Shown here: one piece after another, positions 3,126-57,700 of the stretch | Numbering within the stretch: the first letter of the stretch is position 1 | How the letters are laid out: each line of letters opens with the position of its first letter | NCBI RefSeq assembly: GCF_004122105.1 | Contig: NZ_SBKN01000001.1 | Coordinates: 744,001 to 808,000, forward strand | Direction of reading: 5' to 3' | From: Flavobacterium stagni | GTDB taxonomy: Bacteria; Bacteroidota; Bacteroidia; Flavobacteriales; Flavobacteriaceae | Length of the DNA stretch: 64,000 nt | Translations under genes and position numbers: made by a program | The notes under the pieces: generated by a model | The model's input: the letters and a program-made list of their open reading frames with translations, nothing else | The model's database searches: none | Told to the model about the DNA's origin: nothing

Positions 3126-4397
3126 ATGTTACAGATTGCTGTTATTCGAGAAAATCCTGAGAAGGTAATTGCGGCGCTGAATCGCAAGCACATGGATGCC
3201 AAAGGTATCGTAGAGGAGATTTTACAATTGGATGAAAAACGCCGCAGTTCGCAAGCGTCGTTAGATAACGTATTGGCCGAATCCAACAAGCTGTCCAAAG
3301 ACATCGGGATGTTGATGAAAAATGGTGAAAAAGCCAAAGCGGAAATTCTAAAACAAAAAACGACGAATCTTCGTGAAGAAAGTAAAGTTTTATCCGAGCA
3401 ATTGGATGCATATGCTACTCAATTAACGGAGAAATTATATTTACTTCCCAACCTTCCTGCAGATATTGTTCCCGAAGGAAAAACACCTGAAGAAAATTTG
3501 AATGTGTTCCAAGAAGGTGACATTCCTGTGTTGCATGAAGGCGCATTACCGCACTGGGAATTGGTGAAAAAATACGATATCATCGATTTTGAATTGGGCG
3601 TAAAAATTACCGGTGCAGGTTTCCCTGTTTACAAAGGAAAAGGCGCGCGTTTGCAACGGGCTTTGATTTCGTATTTCTTAGATAAAAATACCGAAGCGGG
3701 TTACCAAGAATACCAAGTACCGCATTTAGTGAATGAAGCTTCAGGTTACGGAACGGGTCAGTTACCCGATAAAGAAGGTCAGATGTACCATGTAGGTTTG
3801 GATGATTTGTATTTGATTCCGACCGCTGAAGTTCCTGTAACCAACTTATTCCGTGATGAGTTGTTGAGTGAATCCGATTTGCCGATTTTGTGTACAGGAT
3901 ATACGCCTTGTTTCCGTCGTGAAGCGGGTTCGTATGGCGCTCATGTTCGCGGGTTGAATCGTTTGCACCAATTTGATAAAGTGGAAATCGTGCGCATCGA
4001 ACATCCAGATAATTCCTATGCGGCTTTAGACGGAATGGTAGACCACGTGAAAAATATCATGCGCGAATTGAAGTTGCCGTACCGAATTTTACGTTTGTGT
4101 GGCGGGGATATGAGTTTTGCTTCGGCCTTAACCTATGACTTCGAAGTGTTCTCTACAGCGCAAGACCGTTGGTTGGAAATTTCTTCGGTGTCAAATTTTG
4201 AAACTTTCCAAGCGAATCGTTTGAAATTACGCTTCAAAGGGAAAGACGGCAAAACGCAATTGGCACATACATTGAACGGTAGTTCATTGGCGCTTCCACG
4301 CGTGATGGCCGGAATCATCGAAAACTACCAAACTCCCGAAGGTATTGTAATCCCCGAAGTATTGCGTCCGTATACCGGATTTGATATCATCAACTAA
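3126..4397 (+). CDS. serS: Seryl-tRNA synthetase
   Basis: Cytoplasmic class II aminoacyl-tRNA synthetase that charges tRNA-Ser (and tRNA-Sec where present). 423 residues, the usual length. The N-terminal ~110 residues form the two-helix coiled-coil tRNA-binding arm, rich in Lys and Glu. The catalytic core follows: the TAEVPVTNLF segment, motif 2 with FRREAGSYG, and motif 3 with NGSSLALPRVMAGIIENYQ near the C-terminus. ATG start about 24 nt after the predicted transcription start. A strong hairpin with a T-run follows 24 bp after the stop, so serS may be its own transcript. Confidence 0.97.
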   Translation: MLQIAVIRENPEKVIAALNRKHMDAKGIVEEILQLDEKRRSSQASLDNVLAESNKLSKDIGMLMKNGEKAKAEILKQKTTNLREESKVLSEQLDAYATQLTEKLYLLPNLPADIVPEGKTPEENLNVFQEGDIPVLHEGALPHWELVKKYDIIDFELGVKITGAGFPVYKGKGARLQRALISYFLDKNTEAGYQEYQVPHLVNEASGYGTGQLPDKEGQMYHVGLDDLYLIPTAEVPVTNLFRDELLSESDLPILCTGYTPCFRREAGSYGAHVRGLNRLHQFDKVEIVRIEHPDNSYAALDGMVDHVKNIMRELKLPYRILRLCGGDMSFASALTYDFEVFSTAQDRWLEISSVSNFETFQANRLKLRFKGKDGKTQLAHTLNGSSLALPRVMAGIIENYQTPEGIVIPEVLRPYTGFDIIN

Positions 4398-4420
4398 TAT
4401 TCGTTAAGAAACCTTAAAAC

Positions 4421-4468
4421 ATGTACTAGACTGACACTTTTTGTGTTATTTTAGTACATTGTTTTTTT
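4421..4468 (+). terminator. Strong hairpin plus T-run between serS and the TPR gene
   Basis: The outer arms ATGTACTA (4421-4428) and TAGTACAT (4452-4459) are perfect complements. The inner bases continue pairing up to a TTTTT loop, giving about 17 pairs with one mismatch and some G-T pairs. Seven T follow at 4462-4468. This looks like a rho-independent terminator for serS, but the next ATG lies only 5 nt after the T-run, so it may also act as an attenuator or translation-control hairpin for the TPR gene. Confidence 0.7.
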
Positions 4469-4473
4469 ATCCT

Positions 4474-6249
4474 ATGAAACGATTTCTACTTTTCATTGTT
4501 TTCGGTCTGTCCCTGACTGCCTTCGCTCAAAACGAGCAGTTGGCTCAGAATTATTTTGACCGGGGCGAATTTGAAAAAGCGCTCGTGAGTTATGAGGAAT
4601 TATTAAAATCACAGCCACACAATTTCAATTATTTTCAACGCACGGTGGAATGTTATCAGCAATTGCAGCAGTTTGATAAAGCCGAGAAATTGATTTTGGA
4701 ACGCTTGGAAATGTATAAACAAGGGAGTTTTTTGGTAGAATTGGGGTATAATTTTCAATTGCAAAAAAACACTGAGAAAGCCAAAAAGTACTACGAGCAA
4801 GCCTTGGATAAGATTCGCAAAAACCACAATGAGGTGTTCCAAATTGCTTATGCATTCGATAAAAAAAGTTTGACCGATTACGCGATTCAATCCTATGAAT
4901 TGGCGTTGACACTCGAACCCAAATACAACTTCAATTACCAGTTGGCATTGCTGTATGGACAAAAAGGCGACTTGGATACCATGATCGAGAAATTCTTGAC
5001 GGAATCTTACAGTAATCCACAGAGTTTGGTGATGGTGCAAAACCAGTTGTCGCGTTTTATGAATGAAGAGGCTAATGTGACCTTCAACGATGCCTTACGC
5101 AAAGCTTTACTCGGTCGCATTCAGAAAACACAAGATTTGTTTTGGAATGATTATTTGAGTTGGTTTTATGTCCAACAAAAAGAATACAGCAAAGCTTTTA
5201 TTCAACAAAAAGCCATTTACAAACGCAGTCCGGAATCGTTTTCCAATATTGTGAATTTGGCGCAATTGGCGATGACGGAAGGCGATCAAGAAGCTGCCCA
5301 AGAGATTTTGCAATTTATTTTGGATAATACCAAAGATTTGGATTTGCAAATCAAAGCGCACACCTATTTGATTGAATTGCGTATCAAAAAGGCACAACCT
5401 GCCGACTATCCGGCGATTGCTCAAGAATTGGATTTGCGCATCAAGCAATTTGGGGTAAGTCCGTATTCTCTTTCGCTTTTACAATTGAAAGCTAAATTTG
5501 CCGCTTTTCAGCAAAAAGATACAGAAACTGCCAAGTTCATTTTGAAAAATGCTTTAGAAATGCCTTTGAAACGCGAAGAAATCGCTGAGGTAAAAATGGA
5601 TTTAGCAGATATTTTATTGTTGGAAGAAAAGTTCAATCAAGCCCTAATTTATTACGCGCAAGTCGAAAATGAAGGCGGTAATAGTCCGACAGGACAAGAA
5701 GCGAGTTTGCGCGTGGCCAAAACCAGTTATTACAAAGCGGATTTCAAATGGGCCGAGCACCAATTGAATGTGTTGAAGTCGGCGTCTACCCAGCTAATCG
5801 CCAATGATGCCATGGATTTGTATTTGCTGATCAGTGACAATACGGTGGCGGATTCGACCCAAACGGCTTTGAAGAAATTTGCCCGTGCCGATTATTTGCT
5901 GTACCAAAATAAAAAAGCAGAAGCATTGCAGGCGTTTCAAACTATTTTGAAAGAACACAAAGGGCAGGAAATCGAACCCATTACGCTTCTTCGCATTGGA
6001 AAATTAGAAGAAGAACAAAATAATATTCCGCAAGCCATTGCGAGCTACCGTCAAATTATTGACCAACATAAAGAATGCATTTATGTAGATGAAGCGACGT
6101 ATTTTGCTGCAGAATTATACAATAAAACAGGGGATGCTGAAAAAGCCAAACCGCTTTATGAAGACCTTATTTTGAACCATGAAGACAGCATTTACTATGT
6201 GGATGCCCAGAAAAAATTCAGACGTCTTCGCGGAGACAAAGAACTCTAA
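4474..6249 (+). CDS. Periplasmic tetratricopeptide-repeat protein
   Basis: 591 residues. The start is the ATG at 4474, chosen because it begins a clean signal peptide (MKRFLLFIVFGLSLTAFAQ); a longer reading frame from 4441 would put hairpin sequence into the protein. After the signal peptide almost the whole chain is helical TPR-type repeat, for example YFDRGEFEKALVSYEELL near the N-terminus and repeats with Ala, Gly and Tyr at TPR positions near residues 490-570. No enzymatic motif is visible. TPR arrays usually hold protein partners; here the partner is unknown. It is followed 86 bp later by the DUF4286 gene. Confidence 0.85.
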   Translation: MKRFLLFIVFGLSLTAFAQNEQLAQNYFDRGEFEKALVSYEELLKSQPHNFNYFQRTVECYQQLQQFDKAEKLILERLEMYKQGSFLVELGYNFQLQKNTEKAKKYYEQALDKIRKNHNEVFQIAYAFDKKSLTDYAIQSYELALTLEPKYNFNYQLALLYGQKGDLDTMIEKFLTESYSNPQSLVMVQNQLSRFMNEEANVTFNDALRKALLGRIQKTQDLFWNDYLSWFYVQQKEYSKAFIQQKAIYKRSPESFSNIVNLAQLAMTEGDQEAAQEILQFILDNTKDLDLQIKAHTYLIELRIKKAQPADYPAIAQELDLRIKQFGVSPYSLSLLQLKAKFAAFQQKDTETAKFILKNALEMPLKREEIAEVKMDLADILLLEEKFNQALIYYAQVENEGGNSPTGQEASLRVAKTSYYKADFKWAEHQLNVLKSASTQLIANDAMDLYLLISDNTVADSTQTALKKFARADYLLYQNKKAEALQAFQTILKEHKGQEIEPITLLRIGKLEEEQNNIPQAIASYRQIIDQHKECIYVDEATYFAAELYNKTGDAEKAKPLYEDLILNHEDSIYYVDAQKKFRRLRGDKEL

Positions 6250-26496: not shown

Positions 26497-28128
26497 TTAT
26501 AAATTATCGATGATTTTGTCTTTGGGATAGCGCACTTTATAACTGATCCGTATTTTTTTGGATTCGTTGGGTGCCAATTTGAGATCCCATGTCATGAAAC
26601 CTGTTTCTGGATTGACGGATGCTTTGCCGTCTTCCAACAATTCGATCGTAATATCTTTATCCGAACTCAACGGATATTGATCTTTTAAAGTCAAATTAAT
26701 TTCTTCTTTTTTATTGTTGCGAATGGTAATGTCATACGTAAACGTTTGCTCTTTGTACGAAGACAAAAACTTGGTGCCCGATTTATCGACCACTTTCTCG
26801 CGTTTGATAGAAATCTTTTTGTCGCGTCCCATGCTCAAACTCAAAGTGTCTCCCGTTTGCTCAGGATTGATGAAGGTTTTGCCCACATTCATTTCTTCAA
26901 ATACAATATTGGCTTCGCCTGGTAACAAATTGTATTGGCCGTAGTTGTCAATTTTAGCCAACAAATACGCTTCTTTCTCCAATCGTGGCGCACTGTAGAA
27001 TTTGTAAGTGGCCGGAATCTGGATTTCTTTCAACGACACACTGTGCATTTTTCCATTGGACAACACATCATACGGTATGTCAATGTCGAAGTTCACGTTC
27101 AGTTGGGATTCGGAGATTTGGGTGTAGTCGTCGATACCATTGTCAAATTCACCGTCAGTGTCTGTTGTATCAGTGTATTTATAATCTTTTTTTACAGCGT
27201 CATTTAAAGTATAAGCATTTAATGTGGTTCTATAACCTTGTACAACAACTTCTTCAAGTCTATTGGTTTGATACCTCAAAAACCACGCTTGTTGCAACGG
27301 TGCTTCGTTACTTTGGTTGGGGTTGCCGCTGGACAAACTCATTTTGATTTTTTTCCAATCAATACCGGTCGTTTGCCAAACTTGGGCTTTGTACAGCAAT
27401 TGAATCGGGTCTTTAATGCTGTTGGCACGTAAGTCATACATGGGTTTCCACCCCGCATTGTTGGTGATGTATGAAAAATTCAAGGTGACATTCCCCGCGA
27501 CTTCGTTTAAGACTTGCAGTACCAATTTCCCCTTCGACATTTTTTCTTCCTTGGCGGTATTCAACTGCAAACGTGCATTTAAGTTGGCCAAAGTTTTGTT
27601 CCACTTGGTTTCTTTTTCTTTGAACGCTTCAATTTGGTTGTCGAGTTCGATGCGTTTCGCTTTATAATACTCCACCATTTTTATCAATTCGGCGGTATTC
27701 AAACCCGAATTGGCGCCACCCACTTGTTGGTTGGTGTCTAACAAGCCAATGGTTTGTTGGTACGAATAAATTTGAATCTGTACTTTTTTGATTTCCTTTT
27801 TAACGATTTCAATACTATCGCGCACCTTTTTAATAGCGGGATTGCTTTCGTCAATTTCGTATTCGGAGATGTAATTTTTAGTAAACTGCACCGACATTAC
27901 GGTTACCGATTTCGGAGCTTTGATTTGCAACGTACTCTCGTTGATGTAATCGGCTACATTTTTAATTACGATTTCGCTATTTCCAACGGGCAAATTCAAT
28001 TGGGCCGAATGTTGGAGTTCTGCACCGCTAAAGTAAACCGTGGCGCCTTGAGTTTTGGCTGTCGTAAACAAGGGTTTTTGGGCCAAGATACTCACAGGAA
28101 GGAGCAGCAGCCAAAGGATATTTTTCAT
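26497..28128 (-). CDS. DUF4139 (MuiA-like) secreted protein, paralogue 1
   Basis: 543 residues from ATG 28128, the start of the signal peptide MKNILWLLLLPVSILAQ; upstream in-frame codons are not credible. An N-terminal domain (~20-90, TVYFSGAELQH), a helical coiled segment (~95-195) and a C-terminal DUF4139 beta domain (~205-543, e.g. YITNNAGWKPMYDLRA, WQTTGIDWKKIKMSLSSG). The family is annotated as mucoidy inhibitor MuiA-like; its real function is unclear. Between the two halves of DUF4139, at residues 291-302, it has LEEVVVQGYRTT, which matches the linker that precedes TonB-receptor plugs, followed by an acidic low-complexity stretch. A close paralogue lies 61 bp upstream. Confidence 0.83.
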   Translation of the reverse strand: MKNILWLLLLPVSILAQKPLFTTAKTQGATVYFSGAELQHSAQLNLPVGNSEIVIKNVADYINESTLQIKAPKSVTVMSVQFTKNYISEYEIDESNPAIKKVRDSIEIVKKEIKKVQIQIYSYQQTIGLLDTNQQVGGANSGLNTAELIKMVEYYKAKRIELDNQIEAFKEKETKWNKTLANLNARLQLNTAKEEKMSKGKLVLQVLNEVAGNVTLNFSYITNNAGWKPMYDLRANSIKDPIQLLYKAQVWQTTGIDWKKIKMSLSSGNPNQSNEAPLQQAWFLRYQTNRLEEVVVQGYRTTLNAYTLNDAVKKDYKYTDTTDTDGEFDNGIDDYTQISESQLNVNFDIDIPYDVLSNGKMHSVSLKEIQIPATYKFYSAPRLEKEAYLLAKIDNYGQYNLLPGEANIVFEEMNVGKTFINPEQTGDTLSLSMGRDKKISIKREKVVDKSGTKFLSSYKEQTFTYDITIRNNKKEEINLTLKDQYPLSSDKDITIELLEDGKASVNPETGFMTWDLKLAPNESKKIRISYKVRYPKDKIIDNL

Positions 28129-28189
28129 GTTTGGTTTTCTGTTGGTTAAGGATATTAACGTCGGTTTCATGATTTCTATTGTTTTGAAA

Positions 28190-30016
28190 TTATAATTTTC
28201 CAATCGATTTGTTTTTATCGGAACGAACGGTATAGCTCAACCGCACCTTTTTGGTTTCGTTGGGTTGCAATGCGATTTTCCACCGTAAAAAGCCTTTATC
28301 CGTGTTCACTAAAGCTTTTCCGTCGTTGGTGAGTTCGATGGAAATACTTGAATCATTACTCAACGGATATTGGTCGCGAAGGTCAACCGTAACCGCTTCT
28401 TTTTTATTATTTCGAAGGGTGATTTCATACGTAAATTGCTGTTCTTTTTGAGACGACAAGAACTTAGTCGCTGATTTTGCTTTCACTTTTTCTCTGAGAA
28501 CAGTGATTTTTTTGTCCCGACCCAAACAGACACGCAAAGTATCTTGGATTTCATTCGGATTGAGTTGGGTAGTGCCTACAACAGTTTCGTCAAAATACAA
28601 TTGGGCGGTTCCTGGCAGCAGATTATATTTTCCAAAATCGGTGATTTCCGCCATTAAAAACACATCCTTGTTCATTTTTGGTACGGTATAAAATTGGTAG
28701 TTGGCCGGAATCTCAAGATTTTTAATTTCGATACCGTGTTTTTTCCCATTGGATAAAATAGCATATGGCAAATCAATGTCAAACGAAACGTTGAGTTCCC
28801 GTTCTACTACTTCGGTATAATCGGAAACGTTTTGTTTGGTCGTAATTAAAATGACCCCGTTACTGGCGCGACTTCCGTAAATGGAAACTGCACTCGCATC
28901 TTTTAACACTTCCACACTTTTTACAGCTTGAGGCGGAAGATTTCTAAAATCATCTGAACTGGCTGGCTTACCGTCAATAATGTATAAAGGTTCGGCATTG
29001 GCATTTAAAGAAGAATATCCCCGAATCATAACTGCACTTTTTGCGCCAGGATTCCCTGTTGCTGCAGTAATATTGACACCAGCCAGTTGACCTTGCAATG
29101 CATTCAAAACAGGAGCATTTTGCTGTATAGCCACTTTTTCTTTCCGTCCATACGGATTGCGGTAAACCAACGTCCACGCTTGTTGTAACGGCGCTTCGTG
29201 TTGAGTGGCCGGATTTCCGTTGGAGAGCGTGAGTTTGATAGAATTCCAATCGATGCCAGTGGTTTGCCACAACTGACTTTTCATCACCAATGCTAAAGGT
29301 TGGGTTAGGGATGTCGCTTTAAGGTCGTAGGTAGGTTCCCAGCCCGCCAAGGTTGTTGTGTAGGTTATTTGAATCGGATGTGTTCCCGCTTGTGCAGTAC
29401 TGAGATACAACACCAATTGCCCTTTGGATTTAACGGATGAATTGGGTTGGGGTGTTAATTGTTGGTTCCAAAAATCCAGCTGCTTTTGGTACTTGACTTG
29501 CTTTTCACCCAACACAAAAGCTTCCCAGGAAAGTTCGTAGAGTTTGGATTGAAAATAGAGTGAATAATTCGCCAATTCTTGAGTCACAATCCCCGTATTA
29601 TTGCCACTCAGCTTGGTGTTAGCATTCAACAAGGCAATTGTTTTTTCTACAGCTCCTTTTTGGATGATAATGGATTGGAGTTTGGATTGAAAAAAGCGAA
29701 TGCTGTCGTGGACTTTGGCGAGTTCGGGACGTTCGTATTCAGGATCAAATTCGGTAGCGTAGTGTTGCGTGAATTGGGTGGCCAAAACGGTAACCGACTT
29801 TGGTGTGCTAATGCGCAGTGATGATTCATCCAATGCATTGGCGATATTAGAAATCACTAATTCTGAAGTTCCTTCAGGCAAAGTAACGCGGGTTGTATGT
29901 CGGAGTTCGGCACCGGAGAAATACACGGTTGCCGATTGGAGTTCGGCTTGTGCAAAAACAGGCTTTTGGGCCCATATTGTGCACGAAAATAATATGAGGA
30001 AAAGAAAGGCTTTCAT
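28190..30016 (-). CDS. DUF4139 (MuiA-like) protein with inserted TonB-receptor plug-like domain, paralogue 2
   Basis: 608 residues from ATG 30016 (signal peptide MKAFLFLILFSCTIWAQ). It shares the N-terminal domain (ATVYFSGAELRH), the helical segment and the DUF4139 domain (WQTTGIDWNSIKLTLSNG) with the next gene. Residues ~300-394 (DNA 28835-29119) are different: they contain AVMIRGYSSLNANAEPLYIIDGKP and then VEVLKDASAVSIYGSRASNG followed by VILITTK, the plug-domain signature of SusC/RagA-type TonB-dependent receptors. No beta-barrel follows, so it is not a receptor. It probably stays in the periplasm or outer membrane. What the plug does here is unknown. Confidence 0.85.
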   Translation of the reverse strand: MKAFLFLILFSCTIWAQKPVFAQAELQSATVYFSGAELRHTTRVTLPEGTSELVISNIANALDESSLRISTPKSVTVLATQFTQHYATEFDPEYERPELAKVHDSIRFFQSKLQSIIIQKGAVEKTIALLNANTKLSGNNTGIVTQELANYSLYFQSKLYELSWEAFVLGEKQVKYQKQLDFWNQQLTPQPNSSVKSKGQLVLYLSTAQAGTHPIQITYTTTLAGWEPTYDLKATSLTQPLALVMKSQLWQTTGIDWNSIKLTLSNGNPATQHEAPLQQAWTLVYRNPYGRKEKVAIQQNAPVLNALQGQLAGVNITAATGNPGAKSAVMIRGYSSLNANAEPLYIIDGKPASSDDFRNLPPQAVKSVEVLKDASAVSIYGSRASNGVILITTKQNVSDYTEVVERELNVSFDIDLPYAILSNGKKHGIEIKNLEIPANYQFYTVPKMNKDVFLMAEITDFGKYNLLPGTAQLYFDETVVGTTQLNPNEIQDTLRVCLGRDKKITVLREKVKAKSATKFLSSQKEQQFTYEITLRNNKKEAVTVDLRDQYPLSNDSSISIELTNDGKALVNTDKGFLRWKIALQPNETKKVRLSYTVRSDKNKSIGKL

Positions 30017-30021
30017 GGTTA

Positions 30022-30549
30022 TTATTTCAATTGGAAGTAGTATTCGGTTTTGTGGTACCAACTCGATTGATTGCCGTTCGGATAACTGTGTACATAGCGC
30101 AAACAGATGCGATTATCGCGTAAGGAAAAGACCACCCATTTCCCATTATACGGCGCGCCACGTGCTTCCGAAAGTAAGTTGACCATGAGTGGGTCACCGC
30201 TGTAGAGCAAGGTGTCTTGGCGGTAGAATTTCACAAAATCCAATAGCATAGTGCCCGAAATTATATTTCCAGGATTACCCACGGCGAGTTCCGAAATGTC
30301 ATAGCGTTGATTCGGCCTATTTTCGTGCCAACCCGATTGGTAGCGGTAGAGCAGTTCCCACTGACTTTCGGGCGTGATTTTTTGATCACTCTCTTTTTTG
30401 GGATTGGAATTCCAAACGGTTAGCGTGGCTAAATCCCGTTTGATAATTTCAGGATCGGTGATTCGGGTCAAATATTTATCCAAAGGAGTATCGCTTTGGG
30501 TGAAGCTCCAAAGGAAAAGACACAAGAGAAGGAAGAGTAGTTTTTTCAT
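30022..30549 (-). CDS. Unrecognised secreted protein (175 aa)
   Basis: I do not recognise a family. Start ATG 30549 gives a signal peptide (MKKLLFLLLCLFLWSFTQS). The mature part is about 155 residues with many aromatic residues and a compact, probably beta-rich C-terminus (WVVFSLRDNRICLRYVHSYP, ending YYFQLK). The single Cys in the mature chain rules out internal disulfides. It ends 5 bp before the DUF4139 paralogue with the plug-like insert, so the two are very likely co-transcribed and may act together. Confidence 0.7.
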   Translation of the reverse strand: MKKLLFLLLCLFLWSFTQSDTPLDKYLTRITDPEIIKRDLATLTVWNSNPKKESDQKITPESQWELLYRYQSGWHENRPNQRYDISELAVGNPGNIISGTMLLDFVKFYRQDTLLYSGDPLMVNLLSEARGAPYNGKWVVFSLRDNRICLRYVHSYPNGNQSSWYHKTEYYFQLK

Positions 30550-30603
30550 ACAAAGGCTTTTCAAATAAGAGGAGCTATTGTATGAAAAGGTTGGAAAGGA
30601 AGT

Positions 30604-31062
30604 TTATTTTTCCTTTTCTAAGGAAACACCAAGTGCAATGATATTGGGGAAATACGGAAATTCAAAGGTGTTTTCGAAAGTAAAGGTGTAGGTTCCGGGT
30701 TCGAAATGTTTTTGGGTAAAAAGCGACTGTTTCACATCACAAACATCGCCGGTACAATCACCCACTTCTTCTCCTTTGTCATTTTTAATATTAAAATCGA
30801 CCGATTGGTTTTCTAAAACTTCATTTTTTGCAATGGAGAAATGTAAAGGGAGTTTTGGAAATTGCGACCCGTATACAAAACTACCGTTCAGGAATCCGTT
30901 GTAGTTGCCCGCTTCTTTCACCGTAAGGGAAAACGTCTTTTTATCTGATTTTAACCACTGATGATTTTCTGGAAAATCATACGATTCGCGAATCACAGTT
31001 TCATTTTGACAAGCTTGTAATAGTAATGCAAGCAATACGAAGGGTAAAAATTTGATGTTCAT
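30604..31062 (-). CDS. Small lipoprotein, distantly GldH-like
   Basis: 152 residues. Lipoprotein signal with LLALLLQAC (Cys18). The mature domain looks like a single beta-sandwich: an opening ESYDFPENHQWLKSDKKTF, a hydrophobic strand pair, two close Cys in DCTGDVCDV that could form a disulfide, and a closing strand rich in Phe. The opening and the length resemble the gliding-motility lipoprotein GldH, but the match is weak and gldH normally lies beside a bifunctional penicillin-binding protein. Here it follows an AsmA/GT51 gene by 51 bp. I treat the GldH link as a hypothesis. Confidence 0.6.
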   Translation of the reverse strand: MNIKFLPFVLLALLLQACQNETVIRESYDFPENHQWLKSDKKTFSLTVKEAGNYNGFLNGSFVYGSQFPKLPLHFSIAKNEVLENQSVDFNIKNDKGEEVGDCTGDVCDVKQSLFTQKHFEPGTYTFTFENTFEFPYFPNIIALGVSLEKEK

Positions 31063-37955: not shown

Positions 37956-38759
37956 ATGGAAGATAAGAGGATATTGTATGTATCATCTGAAGTAGTGCCG
38001 TATTTGGCTGAAAATGAGGTGTCTTTAATGTCGTATGATGTTCCAAAAATGATCAATGATCAAGGAGGACAAATTCGTATCTTCATGCCAAGATATGGAA
38101 ATATTAATGAACGCAGACATCAATTACACGAAGTAATTCGTCTTTCAGGGATGAATTTGGTGGTTAATGATGTTGATATGCCTTTAATTATTAAGGTAGC
38201 TTCTATCCCGAAAGAGCGCATTCAAGTCTATTTTATTGATAACGACGAATATTTCAAAAGAAAATCAACGTTTACAGATGAAGAAGGGGTGATGTATCCT
38301 GACAATGACGAGCGTGCCATCTTTTTTGCAAAGGGTGTAGTAGAAACGGTTAAGAAACTCAATTGGGTGCCTGATATTATTCATGTTCACGGATGGTTAG
38401 CTTCTTTGCTACCTGTTTACATGAAGCATTATTACAAACACGAAGCGTTATTTTCAGAGACAAAAATTGTAACATCTGTTTACAATACTGGCTTTGAGGG
38501 TAATTTGGATGCTGCAGCTATTGATAAAGTAAAATTTGACGGAATTCCTCAGGAAAGTGTACAGGTTTTGGAGCAGCCGAATTACGCGAATTGGATGAAA
38601 GTAGCTGTTGATCATTCCGATGCAGTAATCATTGGGTCAGAAAATTTAGACGGAGGTTTAACAAAAATTATAGAATCTTCAGGAAAACCTTTTTTACCTT
38701 TCACCCCAAAAGAAGCCTTTGCGCAAGCGTACACTTCTTTTTACAAGCAAATGTTATAA
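37956..38759 (+). CDS. Half-length glycogen/starch-synthase-like protein (N-terminal GT5 domain only)
   Basis: 267 residues from ATG 37956, which opens MEDKRILYVSSEVVPY as in GT5 synthases. It matches only the N-terminal Rossmann half of glycogen synthase (IRIFMPRYGNINERRHQLHEV, DNDERAIFFAKGVVE, PDIIHVHGWLASLLPVYM). The ADP-glucose-binding KxGGLADV near residue 15 is replaced by AENEVSLM, and the C-terminal nucleotide-binding half is absent. It is probably not a glycogen synthase but a pseudoenzyme. It is followed 10 bp later by a DUF4270 lipoprotein and then glmS, an arrangement I recall as common in Flavobacteriia. Its function is unknown. Confidence 0.82.
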   Translation: MEDKRILYVSSEVVPYLAENEVSLMSYDVPKMINDQGGQIRIFMPRYGNINERRHQLHEVIRLSGMNLVVNDVDMPLIIKVASIPKERIQVYFIDNDEYFKRKSTFTDEEGVMYPDNDERAIFFAKGVVETVKKLNWVPDIIHVHGWLASLLPVYMKHYYKHEALFSETKIVTSVYNTGFEGNLDAAAIDKVKFDGIPQESVQVLEQPNYANWMKVAVDHSDAVIIGSENLDGGLTKIIESSGKPFLPFTPKEAFAQAYTSFYKQML

Positions 38760-38769
38760 ATTGGTTTTT

Positions 38770-40404
38770 ATGAAATTAAAGCAGTTAGTCGCGGTTTTTA
38801 GTCTATTTTTTGTATTGTCATTAGTTTCCTGTGACAAAGAGTTTTCCGATGTTGGAGCGGATTTGGTAGGGGATGAACATTTTGGACTCAACACAACGAC
38901 ATATGACGTTACCGCATACAATCAGGCAACAGGTGATGTGCAAACGAATGATATGGCAATTCAATCGTTGGGTTATTATAACAATCCTGTTTTTGGGAAA
39001 ACCAAAGCGAGCATTGTAACCCAGTTGGAATTGGCATCCACAAATCCAAAATTTTACGCACCTGAAGCAGTAGATTCTGTGTATATGCACATTCCGTATT
39101 ACACAACAATCACTGATCTTGATGATTCAGGAGCGCCGATTTACAGGTTAGATTCTTTATTGCCTGCATTTGATGAAACAAACACTCCAAAAATAAAGTT
39201 AAGCGTGTTTGAGTCGGGTTACTACATTCAAGATTATGATCCAAGCACCAATCTTCAGCAAGTGCAACGGTATTATTCCAACCAACAATCTGAATTTGAA
39301 GCGGTAATTGCGAATGGAGGACAACGTTTAAACGACGACAATAGCAATCCAAAAGATGCAACAATAACCGACTATAGTCAAAATGATCAATTTGTTTTTA
39401 GTAACAAACCCATTGTTTTTTATAAAACAAATGGTGATGTACGCGAAACACTAGCGCCGGGGATGTACATGAATTTGAATAAATCATTTTTTCAAAATAA
39501 ATTTTACAATGCGCCATCTGGATCACTTTTGAATAACAATACGTTTAAGAATTATTTTAGAGGATTGTTTTTCAAAGTAGAAAGTGCTTCTGGAAGTGAT
39601 AATCAAGGTACATTAGCTCGTCTTAACATAACACGAGGAACGATTACTGTGGTTTATAAAGATTTTCAAAGTCAATCCGCTTATGAAAATAGTTTGACGG
39701 ATCCAACCATTAAAAAAGTTAGAAAGAAAATCACGATTAACTTAACCGGTCGATCGGTAAATTTTTTTGACACTGATTATTCCAATCCCATCACTCCAAA
39801 TGTGACATTAGGGGATGAGCGTTTGCAAATAAAAGGAGGAAAAGGATCAATGGGTGTAGTTAGCTTATTTGGTGGGCAAGCTACTTCAAGTTCGCCTTTG
39901 ATTCAGCAAATGAAAAACGAAAATTGGTTGATTAATGAAGCCAATATGATTTTTTACATCGACAAAACCGCGATGACCAATGCGCCAGAGCCGAATCGAA
40001 TTTTATTATATGATTTAGATAATCATCGACCCGTAATTGATTATTATAATGATTTAACAACTTCTGTAAGTTCTAAATACAATAAAGTAGTACATAGTGG
40101 GATAATTTCAAAAGGGACTGATGAGCGCGGTGAGTACTACAAAGTGAGATTAACTAATCACATACGAAATATAGTTGAACACGATTCAACCAATGTGCGT
40201 TTAGGGTTAGTTGTTACAGAGAATATTAATAATGTAAATCGAGCCTATTTGAAAGTACCTTTCACAGTAGGGTCAAAACAAGCTAAATACGTACCTGCGA
40301 TGTCTGTGGTGAATCCATTGGGGACCATTTTATACGGTTCAAATTCCAATGTTCCTGCGGATAAACGTATTAAATTACAAGTTTACTATACCAAACCTGA
40401 CTAA
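38770..40404 (+). CDS. DUF4270 outer-membrane-type lipoprotein
   Basis: 544 residues from ATG 38770 (10 bp after the previous stop). Lipoprotein signal MKLKQLVAVFSLFFVLSLVSC. The mature part opens DKEFSDVGADLVGDEHFGLN, the hallmark of DUF4270 proteins, and is beta-rich with no membrane helices. The family is Bacteroidota-specific and has no proven role. glmS begins 15 bp downstream, so it is co-expressed with amino-sugar synthesis; a link to surface glycan or peptidoglycan is a guess. Confidence 0.85.
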   Translation: MKLKQLVAVFSLFFVLSLVSCDKEFSDVGADLVGDEHFGLNTTTYDVTAYNQATGDVQTNDMAIQSLGYYNNPVFGKTKASIVTQLELASTNPKFYAPEAVDSVYMHIPYYTTITDLDDSGAPIYRLDSLLPAFDETNTPKIKLSVFESGYYIQDYDPSTNLQQVQRYYSNQQSEFEAVIANGGQRLNDDNSNPKDATITDYSQNDQFVFSNKPIVFYKTNGDVRETLAPGMYMNLNKSFFQNKFYNAPSGSLLNNNTFKNYFRGLFFKVESASGSDNQGTLARLNITRGTITVVYKDFQSQSAYENSLTDPTIKKVRKKITINLTGRSVNFFDTDYSNPITPNVTLGDERLQIKGGKGSMGVVSLFGGQATSSSPLIQQMKNENWLINEANMIFYIDKTAMTNAPEPNRILLYDLDNHRPVIDYYNDLTTSVSSKYNKVVHSGIISKGTDERGEYYKVRLTNHIRNIVEHDSTNVRLGLVVTENINNVNRAYLKVPFTVGSKQAKYVPAMSVVNPLGTILYGSNSNVPADKRIKLQVYYTKPD

Positions 40405-42520: not shown

Positions 42521-45373
42521 ATGAAGATTTACCATCTTTTTGTAACGCTGTTGTTCTGTGCAGTGAGTATGGCACAAACAACGATTACAGGTTCGGTTAA
42601 GGATAGCAAAAACGAACCTGTGCCAGCAGCCAATGTTAAGGTTGCCGGAGAATCTTCAGGAACTGTCACGGATGCTGACGGTAAATTCACCCTGAAAGTT
42701 TCCAAAAAACCACCTTTTACCATTGAGATTTCCAGTATTGGATTTGCGGCTCAAAAGGTGCAGATCACTTCAGCTTCTCAAAATGTAAGCGTGGTGCTTC
42801 AAAATGAAGATACCCGTTTGGAAGAAATTGTTGTTTCTGCTTCACGTACACCTGAGCGAATCAAAGAATCTCCGGTTACTATTGAGCGTATGACCGTTAA
42901 GGACATCAAGAAGACAGCTTCACCTTCTTTTTATGATGGGTTAGAGAATTTAAAAGAGGTACATATGAATACTAGTAGTATGTCTTTTAAATCCATCAAT
43001 ACACGTGGTTTTGCTACGGTGGCCAATACACGTTTTATGCAGTTGGTTGACGGTATGGATAACTCTTCACCATTGTTGAACTTCGTGTTAGGAAATCTTA
43101 TCGGGATTTCAGAATTGGATGTGCAAAGTGTAGAGTTGTTACCAGGAGCATCTTCAGCGTTGTATGGAGCAAATGCCTTTAATGGTATTTTGTTTATGAA
43201 CAGTAAGAGCCCTTTTACAAGTCAAGGAATTTCTGCGTATGCCAAATACGGTCAAACCAATCAAAAAGCAGCGGGAGCGAATGAATATGTGGATTATGGT
43301 GTGCGTGTTGCGCATGCGTTTACTAAACATTTTGCAGCCAAAGCTAACTTTTCATTCATGAAAGGTACCGATTGGTATGCAACAGACTATCGTGATAAAG
43401 ATTTAGTGAATAATATCGGAATGGATCGTTCGGCACCAAACTATAATGGTATTAATGTGTATGGAGATGAGGCTTCAACAAACATTAGAGGTGTTGCGAC
43501 AGGAATGTTAAATGCAGGGGTAATCACACCAGCACAATTTTCTGTATTCCAACAAATTTTACCTAATTACAATGTGTCACGTACAGGATATAATGAGGTA
43601 GATTTAACAGACAATAAAGTACGTAATGCTAAAGTCGATTTCTCGTTACATTTCAAGCCTTGGGGCGATGATAATGAAATCATTTGGCAAAGTAAATTTG
43701 GATTTGGTAATACTGTGTATCAAGGAGCCAACCGTTATTATTTGAATGGCTTTTTTATGCAACAACATAAATTAGAATTGAAAGGGAAAAACTATTTCAT
43801 TCGTGGTTATTTCACTACAGAAGATGGCGGAAATTCCTACGACATGTTGTTCACCGGTTTGAATGTTAACCGTCAATGGAAATCAGATGCTACTTGGTTT
43901 GGTCAATATGCTGCAACCTATGTGCAATCTACTTTAGCAGGGGCTACACCAACACAAGCGCATGCAGCTGCTCGTAATATAGCAGATACAGGTCGTTTAA
44001 TTCCGGGTACACCAGAATTCCAAGCAGCATTCAATAGAGTAATCGCGGATTCTGATGTGTTGACTGGATCAAAATTGGTTGACGACTCTAAATTATACCA
44101 TTCGGATGCCAACTATAATTTTAAAGATTTAATCAAATTTGCTGAAATTCAAGTGGGTGGTTCATTCCGTATGTATGAATTGAATTCATTAGGAAGAATT
44201 TATACTGACAAAGGAACAGATATTCTTTACAGAGAACACGGTTTGTATACTCAAGTTCAAAAGAAATTCATGGAAGACCGTTTGAAATTTACAGGTTCGG
44301 TTCGTTATGACAAATCGCAAAACTTTGACGGGAATTTCTCACCACGTGTATCTTTAGTTTATTCAGCTGGAGAACAAAAAAATCACAACTTCCGTGGGTC
44401 TTTCCAAACCGGTTTCCGTAACCCAACGACGCAAGATCAATATATCGGTTTTAACGTAGGTAGTGCAGTTTTACTTGGGTCTGCACCCGATAACTTAATT
44501 CGATATACAGAAACATTACCAGTTACTTCGGCTTCAGGTCAAGCTATTGTTGGAGGTACATCGACTACGATTAACGGTAACAATGCTTACTATAACTCGT
44601 ATACCGCTTCTTCCGCTTCACAGTTTGCGGCTTTGGCTAGTACAGATCCTGTTGCGGCTTCTGCCTTATTGCGCAAAGCGAATGTGAACTTGGTGAAACC
44701 AGAAACGGTAAAAGCTTTTGAATTGGGCTATCGCGGACAAATCAAAAACTTATCGTATGATTTAACAGGATATTACAATATTTACAATGACTTCATTGGA
44801 AACATCAATGTGGTAACTCCTTTGTATGGTACAGCACAAGATGCTCCAAATCCATTGGCAGGCCCTACTAACCCAGGAGCACAATCGATTGATGCATTAG
44901 CAACAGGCAATACCCGCGTATTCCAATTGTATACGAATACAGATGTTGAGGTGCGGTCATTAGGTTTCGGTGCTGGATTAAATTATAAATTGCCAAGAAA
45001 CTTTGAAGTAAGCGCTAATTATAACTATGCACAATTTGATTTTGATCAAGGCAAAGATCCAGGGTTTGAAGCAGGTTTCAATACACCAAAACACCGTGTG
45101 AAAGCGAGTATCAGCAATGATAAATTGTTCAAAAACTTCGGGTTTAACATTAGTGGGCGTTGGAATACAGGTTATCAATGGGAATCTACTTTCGTAGATG
45201 GTTACATCAACGAAGCAACTGTATTTGATGCACAAATCAATTACAACATCCCAAAATTGAAAGCAATTATTAAGTTGGGAGCGACCAACCTTGGTGGTAA
45301 AGAATACCAACAAGTGCTTGGAGCTGGTTTTATCGGAAGTCAATATTTTGCTTCTTTAACGCTTAACCCATAA
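42521..45373 (+). CDS. TonB-dependent outer-membrane receptor with carboxypeptidase-like N-terminal domain
   Basis: 950 residues. Signal peptide (MKIYHLFVTLLFCAVSMAQ), a carboxypeptidase-regulatory-like domain (~20-100, TITGSVKDSKNEPVPAANVKV), the TonB-interacting linker (NEDTRLEEIVVSASRTPERI), plug domain with INTRGFATVANTRFMQLVDG and LPGASSALYGANAFNGI, then a 22-strand barrel to the end (FIGSQYFASLTLNP). No SusD partner follows; instead an SGNH lipoprotein starts 25 bp downstream. The LLPGASSALYGANAFNGILF form differs from SusC. The ligand is unknown; uptake of a lipid, ester or siderophore-like molecule is possible given the partner. Confidence 0.92.
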   Translation: MKIYHLFVTLLFCAVSMAQTTITGSVKDSKNEPVPAANVKVAGESSGTVTDADGKFTLKVSKKPPFTIEISSIGFAAQKVQITSASQNVSVVLQNEDTRLEEIVVSASRTPERIKESPVTIERMTVKDIKKTASPSFYDGLENLKEVHMNTSSMSFKSINTRGFATVANTRFMQLVDGMDNSSPLLNFVLGNLIGISELDVQSVELLPGASSALYGANAFNGILFMNSKSPFTSQGISAYAKYGQTNQKAAGANEYVDYGVRVAHAFTKHFAAKANFSFMKGTDWYATDYRDKDLVNNIGMDRSAPNYNGINVYGDEASTNIRGVATGMLNAGVITPAQFSVFQQILPNYNVSRTGYNEVDLTDNKVRNAKVDFSLHFKPWGDDNEIIWQSKFGFGNTVYQGANRYYLNGFFMQQHKLELKGKNYFIRGYFTTEDGGNSYDMLFTGLNVNRQWKSDATWFGQYAATYVQSTLAGATPTQAHAAARNIADTGRLIPGTPEFQAAFNRVIADSDVLTGSKLVDDSKLYHSDANYNFKDLIKFAEIQVGGSFRMYELNSLGRIYTDKGTDILYREHGLYTQVQKKFMEDRLKFTGSVRYDKSQNFDGNFSPRVSLVYSAGEQKNHNFRGSFQTGFRNPTTQDQYIGFNVGSAVLLGSAPDNLIRYTETLPVTSASGQAIVGGTSTTINGNNAYYNSYTASSASQFAALASTDPVAASALLRKANVNLVKPETVKAFELGYRGQIKNLSYDLTGYYNIYNDFIGNINVVTPLYGTAQDAPNPLAGPTNPGAQSIDALATGNTRVFQLYTNTDVEVRSLGFGAGLNYKLPRNFEVSANYNYAQFDFDQGKDPGFEAGFNTPKHRVKASISNDKLFKNFGFNISGRWNTGYQWESTFVDGYINEATVFDAQINYNIPKLKAIIKLGATNLGGKEYQQVLGAGFIGSQYFASLTLNP

Positions 45374-54776: not shown

Positions 54777-57700
54777 ATGCTATTCAAAAGAGTATTTTTA
54801 GTTGTACTACTACTTTTAAAATTTACTACGTATTCCCAAGTAAATTTAACGGCTGGAGCACCAACCTATTTTGAAAACTTTAATACGTTGGCAAATACAG
54901 GTACTCCGACATGGACAGACAACACCACGCCGCTTGTTGGTTGGTACAGTACTAAAAATGGTACAACCTATGGAATCAATACAGGTTCAAACAATGCGAA
55001 TAATGTCTATAGTTTTGGTGCTAGCTTAGCAACAGATAGAGCTTTAGGTGCAATTTCTACAGCTACAACTCATCGTTTTGCAGTTCGAATCAAAAATAAC
55101 GATCCTGTACAGAGTATTACTTCTTTAACCATAAATTTTACAGGGGAACATTGGCGTGTAAACACTACGACTCAAGCATTAGTTTTTGAATATCAAAAAG
55201 GTGCTACTGCATTAGCAACGGGAACTTGGACAGCAGATACAAATTTAGATTTTGGAAATTTAAGTACTGGAGCAGCAGCAGCTATAGACGGGACGTTACC
55301 AGCAAATCAAGCAGCAAAGTCTTCTACAATTACGATTACATTAGCTCCTGGCGAAGAAATTTGGTTACGATGGACAAAATCGGCTACAAATAGTCATGGT
55401 TTAGCAATTGATGATTTGAATATAGCGGCCACTTTTGTTTCTCCCTGCACTCCGCCAACTAATCCTACAGGCTCTATTACAGGAACTACCCCCGCATGTT
55501 CGTCCACAACATTGACGTATACGGGAACGGCTACTGCGCCTGTGGTGAACTATTGGCAAACGTCAGCTACAGGAATGTCTACAGCCAATAATGCGGCTTC
55601 ACCTTTAGCGGTGACTACTTCTGGAAATTATTATGTACGTGCTTATGATCCAACCTCGGGTTCGGGGTGTTGGTCAACTACGGCTGTTGGGCCGTATGCA
55701 GTGGTGATTAATCCTGCTGTATCGATTACCACCCAACCCACAAATCAATCCATTGCAGCGGCACAGAATACGACTTTCACTGTCGTAGCTTCTAATGCAA
55801 CGGCTTACCAATGGCAAGTATCCACTGATAGTGGTGCTACATGGACCAACTTAACCAATACCGGTGTTTATACTACAGTAACTACAGCAACCATGAACAT
55901 TACTGGGGCAACCTTTGCGATGAATGGATACCAATACCGTTGTGTTGTAAGTGGAACGGCTCCATGTGCTGCGGTGAATTCAACAGCGGCAACATTGTCT
56001 GTTGTGAATGCGATAAATACCATTGCCGATTTAGGAACACAAGTAACCGCTGCTTTTGTCCCTCAAGCAACATTGGATCATGTAATTTTTAAATTTCAAG
56101 TGAGTCCGACGGTTACTACCAATCTTCAAGGTATTGCCAACGTGGTAACTGCGGGGACTTATGTTTCTGCGGATATTGTGAATTTGAAAGTTCGTTATTC
56201 AGCCGATAATGTGTTAGACGCTGCGGATATAACCTTAAGTACATTAACCACTCCGGGTGTAGCAGGGGCCAAAACTTTTCCGGCTTTTACTGCTCAATCA
56301 ATTACTGGTGGTACTACAGGTTATATTTTCATTACCGCAGATGTTTCAGCAACGGCAGTTGTTGGGAATACGATTTCTTTAAATGCAGTTACTACGGCAA
56401 ATTTAATTTTCTCTTTAGGAACAAAAACGGGAACTACGACTGCAGGTGGTACACAAACAATTGCGCCTTCTGCACCTTTAGTGCCTGCGAGTTTTACCAA
56501 AGGTTGTACAACCAATACTACGCAAATTTTGAATTGGACGGCGCCAGCTTCCGGGTCTTATGATGGTTATATAGTAGTAGCTCGTCAAGGTGGTTTAAAT
56601 CCGCATGCGATTACTTCGTTAGTGGCTTCCTCACAAACCTTCAATACTGATTTTTCATTAGCACCCACTTATGGAAGTACAGCACCCTTATCGCGCGTAG
56701 TCTATATTGGAACGGGTACAACGGCTACGATTACAGGTTTGACTACAGGTGCGACCTATGTTTTTGAAATTTATACTTTTAGAAATAACGGTCCGACTAA
56801 CTCAGTCTATTCCACAACATCACGCACGACTACACAATTGATCGGACTCAACAATGTAACAAGTGCTTCGTCAACAGCGGGGAATACCACCGGATTGATT
56901 GGTTGGGCAAATCCTAATGCCATTTGTTATGATCAAGTGTTAGTTGTTGTAACAAGTGCGGCGGGTATTACTTTCACGCCTACTGGGGATGGAAGTGCTT
57001 ATACTGCGAATCCAGCATTTACAGCTTTTAATCAAGTGGTCTATGCTTCCAGTGGTAACAATGTAAATATTACAGGATTAACCAATGGCGTTACCTATTA
57101 TGTTGAAATTTTTGTTCGCTTTGGAACCCAATGGAGTACAGGTGTAGAAGTAAGTTGTACACCACAAAACATAGTACCTACGGTTTTTAAAACGGGGGAT
57201 TTGTTGTTGATTGCTTATAACAATAATGCTGCTGGAGGAGATGATGATATACGTTTAGTTACATTAGTTGATGTGAATCCAGGGACTAGCTTTTTATGGA
57301 CTAATGCAACTTATGAAACAGGAGGCTCACCTGCCGCAAATGTGAGAACCGATAAATGGTATGAATGCCGCGCAGATATCGCTCCTACAGGAAATGTACC
57401 CTATTTGGAATTTACCTACAATGGTGCTACACCTATACCTGCCGGTTCTGTTTTTTGTATTACAACCGATAACGGCGGAACAGCAACCGTTATTTCTTGT
57501 GTTTCGCCATCAGGAACAACGTATACAACTTTTACAATTAGTGGAAAATCGGCAGATGGTAACTCTTTATTGAGTCATACTTCTGTAAATGTATCAACAT
57601 CAAATCCAGACTCCATGTTTTTGATGCAAGGCTATTTTACGTATAATGCTTCGGGCTCAACATTTACAGGTACAGTATTGTCAGGTGTTCAAGATGGTGG

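Follow-up and report, generated by a model that had tools for sequence, protein, structure and literature searches.

A SusC-type plug domain in a hypervariable loop of a DUF4139 (MuiA-family) protein from Flavobacterium stagni

Locus organization and identity of the plug

The DNA stretch analyzed, referred to as the window, comprises 64,000 nucleotides of Flavobacterium stagni (contig NZ_SBKN01000001.1, positions 744,001-808,000). Within this window, two tandem genes encoding DUF4140-DUF4139 proteins are located on the minus strand, one of which carries a SusC-type plug domain. The product of the latter gene (28193-30016) is designated the window protein. Features of both genes are as follows:

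28193-30016, minus strand: plug-bearing DUF4140-DUF4139 gene, 608 amino acids from its ATG, stop codon at 28190-28192
29969-30016, minus strand: signal peptide, taken as type I, placed by eye (...TIWA/QKP)
29627-29932, minus strand: DUF4140 domain (Pfam, 62.6 bits)
29456-29728, minus strand: helical hairpin, AlphaFold2 helices 97-132 and 145-187 of the 608-residue protein
29174-29422, minus strand: N-terminal half of DUF4139 (Pfam)
28799-29173, minus strand: whole variable loop (linker, plug, linker), 125 residues, pLDDT below 50 at 271-301 and 398-406
28835-29104, minus strand: SusC-type plug domain (Pfam, NCBIfam, PDB sequences, AlphaFold2 with superposition)
28193-28798, minus strand: C-terminal half of DUF4139 (Pfam)
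26500-28170, minus strand: plug-less DUF4140-DUF4139 paralogue in tandem, with two candidate start codons (ATG 28170 or 28128)
27106-27282, minus strand: equivalent loop of the paralogue, 59 residues, disordered by prediction with pLDDT mostly about 30-37
27229-27258, minus strand: TonB-box-like LEEVVVQGYR within this paralogue loop (motif score 23.9, shuffling p 0.001)

The open frame of the plug-bearing gene extends over 28190-30061 (minus strand, 623 amino acids), with the likely ATG at 30016. Its signal peptide includes LFSC, a weak lipobox-like string. Since none of 80 scanned frames of named relatives showed a lipobox-like match in the first 70 residues, the window protein is unlikely to be a lipoprotein. 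In the Pfam search, DUF4140 (PF13600) was matched at 62.6 bits against a cut-off of 27 and DUF4139 (PF13598) at 167.7 bits against 31.8, the latter over residues 230-613 with the plug interrupting it. Moreover, the MuiA family profile TIGR02231 was matched at 221.1 bits (NCBIfam cut-off 112.6). On structure superposition, the hairpin resembled those of MacA and EnvC at Z 8-9, an arrangement that is common, and the best structural matches of the C-terminal part of DUF4139 were AP2 mu and glycosidase beta domains, all at Z below 8. The gene product is a periplasmic DUF4140-hairpin-DUF4139 protein. Complete DUF4140 and DUF4139 domains and a signal peptide are shared with the MuiA/DUF4139 family (TIGR02231, PF13598, PF13600). 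The profiles of this family hold no plug, whereas in the window protein SusC-derived sequence replaces one loop.

An earlier note on this DNA had described a TonB-receptor plug-like stretch at 28835-29119 within a DUF4139 (MuiA-like) protein devoid of a beta-barrel. The profile searches bear this description out. The plug family PF07715 was matched at 59.0 bits (gathering cut-off 23.9) over residues 311-403, and the barrel family PF00593 gave no Pfam match up to E 1, the remainder of the protein being DUF4139. The stretch described is essentially the plug itself and reached 61.6 bits when translated alone. Furthermore, TIGR04057, the SusC signature, was matched at 57.3 bits against a cut-off of 46.2. 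TIGR04056, the profile of the full SusC family, remained below its cut-off (131.8 versus 368.25 bits), with the match confined to profile positions 109-210 of 981. A search of PDB sequences with the window protein retrieved the RagA and SusC plugs with E values down to 2e-22. The N-terminal extension (PF13715) was absent according to Pfam and to models built from SusC receptors, and a motif scan detected no TonB box.

The structure prediction proposed in the same note returned a plug-like insert. The AlphaFold2 model of the window protein showed a mean pLDDT of 77.6 and a pTM of 0.49, with pLDDT values of 75-83 for plug residues 341-390, only 54-59 for the first third of the plug (301-340) and below 50 for the linkers. 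The modelled plug superposed on the BT1763 plug (6zlt_B 111-214) at Z 9.4 and an rmsd of 3.6 over 100 residues, with 47% identity, and the sole Foldseek match of the protein model at E below 0.001 was RagA. The plug identity and the predicted plug-like fold of the insert hold, the first third being of low confidence in the model. An assembly or annotation artefact was rejected because the same architecture occurs in other assemblies, including that of Flavobacterium fontis (L245, 88% identity). Compared with SusC/RagA receptors (TIGR04056; RagA, BT1763), the window protein has the plug sequence, the SusC signature and the predicted fold in common, but it lacks a barrel match and its plug is set within a DUF4139 protein.

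Pfam searches of 17 window frames revealed neither a tonB gene nor a susCD operon. A separate TonB-dependent receptor with extension, plug and barrel is encoded at 42521-45373, about 12 kb from the plug gene. Other neighbours identified by Pfam were GSDH-like, GldH-like lipoprotein, transglycosylase, AAA/Lon-like (which we take to be RadA) and OmpA proteins, all of them ordinary. Relatives of the GSDH gene and of the AAA/Lon-like gene accompany the gene at 35 and 31 of 140 loci, respectively, duplicates included. The small frame 30022-30564 yielded no Pfam match. The lipoprotein at 30604-31062, two genes upstream, matches GldH (30.8 bits, cut-off 27), by name a gliding-motility component. A DUF4270 protein is encoded at 38719-40404, about 9 kb off, and the 1767-residue open frame at 54777-60080 has no Pfam match at E 1e-5.

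Contents of the DUF4139 loop in related proteins

DUF4139 was present in 47 of 101 genomes of a genus sample, in 38 of 149 of a family sample and in 107 of 296 of a phylum sample (91 of the latter above the curated cut-off); these samples overlap by a few genomes. In total, 160 distinct DUF4139 frames were collected and 156 were compared, those too divergent or partial (one at L136, two at L141, one at L154) being left out of the loop counts. Extension and plug were called in the loops with models built from SusC receptors only, and Pfam was concordant with them on ten proteins checked, four of which belong to the named set described below. Extension and plug together were found in 22 loops, the extension only in 36, the plug only in ten, including the window protein, and neither in 88. 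The earlier note had also suggested looking for the insert in other Bacteroidota DUF4139 proteins. SusC N-terminal material does lie at the same loop across the relatives and is widespread in Bacteroidota; Pfam confirmed the extension in relatives such as L069. Extension and TonB box occur in these relatives in the native order of SusC/RagA receptors, whereas pieces in the DUF4139 family are often incomplete or reordered.

A TonB box was detected in 53 of the 58 extension-bearing loops (22 of 22 with extension and plug, 31 of 36 with extension only), positioned 4-6 residues past the extension in 44 of those 53. This occurrence and placement would favour a loop that engages TonB and thereby pulls on or senses the DUF4139 protein, with plug-only forms being derived and acting together with a TonB-box-bearing paralogue. 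The motif is the same as the TonB box VDEVVV of Bt1763, which is functional and the loss of which disables Bt1763 (PMC7782687, accessible portion). The strong TonB-box-like stretch LEEVVVQGYR in the loop of the window paralogue resembles it as well. These points are opposed by the plug-only proteins, only one of ten of which has a TonB box, the window protein being among the nine without. Likewise, the stretch is missing from the paralogue's counterparts in G097 (L025, p 0.12) and F. fontis (second gene of L245, p 0.52), and we regard a TonB-driven role of the loop as improbable. Of the two roles offered in the earlier note, docking is still the best functional guess, whereas direct recruitment of TonB or a TonB-like partner appears unlikely for the window protein because its sequence has no TonB box.

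Further plug-bearing forms were found in a named set representing the best 80 of 171 matching loci (82 loops; at least four of its genomes were already sampled), namely in F. fontis, F. difficile, F. limnosediminis, F. swingsii, F. terrigena, F. psychrophilum and F. branchiophilum. On a backbone tree of the 156 proteins, a quick tree with long-branch warnings, 13 changes were counted for the plug and 10 for the extension. Many forms of the loop resemble plugs from which internal parts have been deleted, and SusC-like genes are abundant (19-38 TIGR04056 matches per genome in eight genomes, not all above the cut-off). Both observations would be accommodated by an unconstrained loop in which an old in-frame SusC insert provided homology, and which ectopic recombination and deletion reshape without any function. 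The predicted disorder of the plug-less paralogue's loop is also compatible with this explanation, which we consider a serious alternative, though less likely than not in view of the frame and constraint data given below.

The two sets together comprised 220 distinct loops, 132 of which are short (85 residues or fewer). At a shuffling p of 0.01, these short loops contained the TonB box in 47 cases, LQGxxAG in 43 and IRGxSS in 11, with 1.3 expected for each. At least one of these three 10-residue SusC motifs was found in 72 of the 132 and none in 60. The same scan of reversed sequences gave 0, 1 and 1 hits, respectively. With thresholds set at the lower quartile of motif hits, densities per thousand residues in short loops amounted to 4.85 (TonB box), 4.45 (LQG) and 1.21 (IRG), compared with 0.032, 0.009 and 0.123 in flanking frames, corresponding to ratios of about 150, 500 and 10. 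This flanking control consisted of 1043 frames at these loci, each 150 codons or longer, after those matching plug or extension models had been set aside.

Two or three motifs were present in 26 short loops, in native receptor order in 10 and in non-native order in 16; among the latter, several loops are closely related, and the calls in L022, L119, L284, L297 and L305 are weak or overlapping on reading. A rough regular-expression count gave non-native or repeated order in 17 of 59 multi-motif loops. Clear non-native order is seen in L273 (IRG-LQG-TonB box), and the longer L288 loop reads LQG-IRG-TonB box-plug end.

Six-frame translations of the 132 short loops were compared with 22 SusC proteins at E 0.01. 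Matches were obtained for 53 loops, in all 53 cases in the native frame and never in the five other frames. By reading, the matched region is the periplasmic N-terminal module in all of them except L042, a weak match at a barrel position; the match of L119, for example, covers receptor residues 105-154 of that module. Random capture of any SusC piece is unsupported, given zero alternative-frame matches and a single weak barrel-position match among 53. That short pieces in non-native order still lie in the native frame also argues against a loop reshaped without function. Native-frame-only fragments, in turn, would equally be expected from homologous gene conversion of an old in-frame insert without selection on the peptide. 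No single piece seems to be needed, because relatives keep different pieces and 60 of the 132 short loops hold none.

Turnover, constraint and origin of the plugs

The DUF4139 loop is hypervariable. Between L005 and L008, the backbone is 98.3% identical and the loop 31%; between the window paralogue (L029) and L025, the values are 97.8% and 44%. Pairs with at least 95% backbone identity, 22 in number, had a median loop identity of 0.65, some of them reaching 0.9. In six sets of closely related genes, the DNA alignments showed apparent block replacement between conserved flanks, a pattern that functionless reshaping by recombination would also produce. The earlier note had missed that the insert represents one state of a hypervariable loop with several SusC-derived acquisitions.

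Nevertheless, the plug of the window protein is computed to be under purifying selection at the protein level, its dN/dS being 0.134 versus F. fontis and 0.144 versus L244 (core 0.097 and 0.072). This constraint in the window lineage speaks against an unconstrained loop, as do four captured plugs (L095, L068, L012, L009) with 67-84% residue identity to their own receptor despite near-saturated synonymous sites. In both comparisons with the window, pN was higher for the plug than for any of the 284 core blocks, with unremarkable pS. That the window protein had its plug replaced recently, compared with F. fontis, was unsupported, since the plug pS of 0.565 was reached by 13 of the 284 core blocks.

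As an observation on the backbone, synonymous divergence between window positions 28193-30016 and L245 positions 4001-5824 amounts to 0.63-0.70 in the first 90 codons and 0.05-0.38 in the final 210, a pattern resembling that of a backbone recombined in mosaic fashion between the window species and F. fontis.

Receptor sampling covered nine genomes (eight plus the own genome, with extra receptors from G526, G300 and G264) and provided own-genome receptors for nine of 32 DUF4139 plugs. L217 (the L021 gene itself) and L215 (another protein) were dropped from the trees and from the recount. Among the receptors sampled, the closest relative was a receptor for 10 of the 32 plugs and another DUF4139 plug for 22, including that of the window protein. 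Five of the nine plugs with own-genome receptors sampled sit closest to one of these receptors:

L095 with L201: own receptor 85%, best DUF4139 plug 48%
L068 with L205: own receptor 77%, best DUF4139 plug 52%
L012 with L220: own receptor 74%, best DUF4139 plug 55%
L009 with L204: own receptor 69%, best DUF4139 plug 53%
L089 with L242: own receptor 58%, best DUF4139 plug 55%

For the other four (the window protein, L047, L021 and L156), an own-genome receptor was not the closest relative. The nearest own-genome receptor of the window plug is G000:C32:39052 (62%), and its nearest DUF4139 plug is L047 (73%) in the first set and that of F. fontis on a larger tree.

The plug tree, built on an alignment of only about 100 columns and with many weakly supported forks, required 11 changes between the DUF4139 and receptor labels, at least four of which are forced by well-supported branches. 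A single clade of DUF4139 plugs was rejected (AU p 2.8e-5) in a test that used 100 columns and a quick tree and was run after the plug tree had been seen. The larger tree with 20 additional plugs required 10 changes, at least five of them forced. Based on these computations, several separate exchanges took place between receptor genes and the DUF4139 family. On the larger tree, receptors L220 and L242 fall within a DUF4139 group, and exchange may therefore run both ways, its direction being unsettled. One ancient insertion followed by vertical inheritance and decay is insufficient, given that the plugs do not form one clade and that motifs occur in non-native order. Inheritance within the family is likewise common, 22 of the 32 plugs having their closest relative among DUF4139 plugs, as would be expected of a loop reshaped without function.

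The loop as a candidate docking module

SusC receptors are central to glycan uptake in Bacteroidota. Our best reading, held tentatively and at somewhat less than even confidence, is that the loop is refilled from resident SusC genes and retained as a receptor-mimicking candidate docking module. One long DUF4139 loop would be the place at which parts of the N-terminal, periplasmic SusC module, namely extension, TonB box and plug, are received. In the window lineage, this loop carries an entire plug between flexible linkers; the resident receptor G000:C32:39052 has a plug of this type too. The loop may be retained since it mimics the periplasmic face of the receptor, and the mimic could dock to whatever normally meets this face, be it the barrel of a receptor, the assembly machinery or, for loops with a TonB box, TonB. 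Renewal would proceed by gene conversion or capture, with the numerous resident SusC genes as donors.

Receptor-mimicking docking is favoured because matches keep to the native frame and, apart from L042, to the N-terminal module in the periplasm, because the window plug is constrained and because nearly all extension-bearing loops contain a TonB box. Selection would be a putative cause of the loop's likeness to receptors. Set against the docking reading are, besides the gene conversion argument given above, the faster change of the plug protein compared with the core, the predominance of plugs closest to other family members, the motif-free short loops and the position of receptors L220 and L242 inside a DUF4139 group. 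It appears rather unlikely that cells repeatedly copy their own SusC plug, TonB-box and extension pieces into the loop under peptide-level selection, creating a tunable competitor or docking surface for SusC-handling machinery.

Phage- or bacteriocin-type agents exploit the periplasmic module of SusC or TonB. A loop displaying receptor pieces could titrate a phage, a bacteriocin or another agent using this face, and both the fast turnover of the loop and its mimicry of the module so exploited would fit such a decoy. Pfam detected no defence gene in the 17 window frames searched, and nothing ties the loop to phage, which makes a decoy function very improbable.

Plugs outside receptors also occur in other Bacteroidota proteins, e.g., M56 peptidases, as plug-like sequence without a barrel in stable fusions. 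The DUF4139 plug differs from these in its hypervariable loop setting and in its repeated exchange with receptor genes. A literature search, mostly outside subscription journals, retrieved nothing on DUF4139 together with a plug domain, and for DUF4139 alone only titles on other matters. Queries on MuiA, mucoidy inhibitor, Bacteroidota plug domains and SusC gene conversion gave nothing on plug-bearing DUF4139 proteins among the matches listed, which likewise included no characterized function for the MuiA/DUF4139 family. The family is unmentioned in the accessible portions of PMC12204202, PMC12611786, PMC12578637 and PMC7782687. The periplasmic extension of Bt1763 is required for growth on levan (PMC7782687, accessible portion).

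The DUF4139 family represents a second family that borrowed the SusC periplasmic module several times and offers a natural set of minimal pieces for finding the partners of this module. Moreover, it makes the fate of copied receptor domains testable, as a neutral conversion hot spot versus selected mimicry, and the repeated refilling of its loop points to unexplored receptor mimicry or gene shuffling.

Two other frames may represent non-receptor plug proteins. L215 (G264:C8:216800-217582), possibly another non-receptor use of the SusC module, has a cytoplasmic-looking start and one membrane segment (by eye), followed by extension- and plug-like sequence, and a second plug match lies about 2 kb from it. 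In the window genome, a 595-residue frame at G000:C35:68032-68211 possibly encodes another such protein, matching plug profile positions 45-107 only, at 25.2 bits against a cut-off of 23.9.
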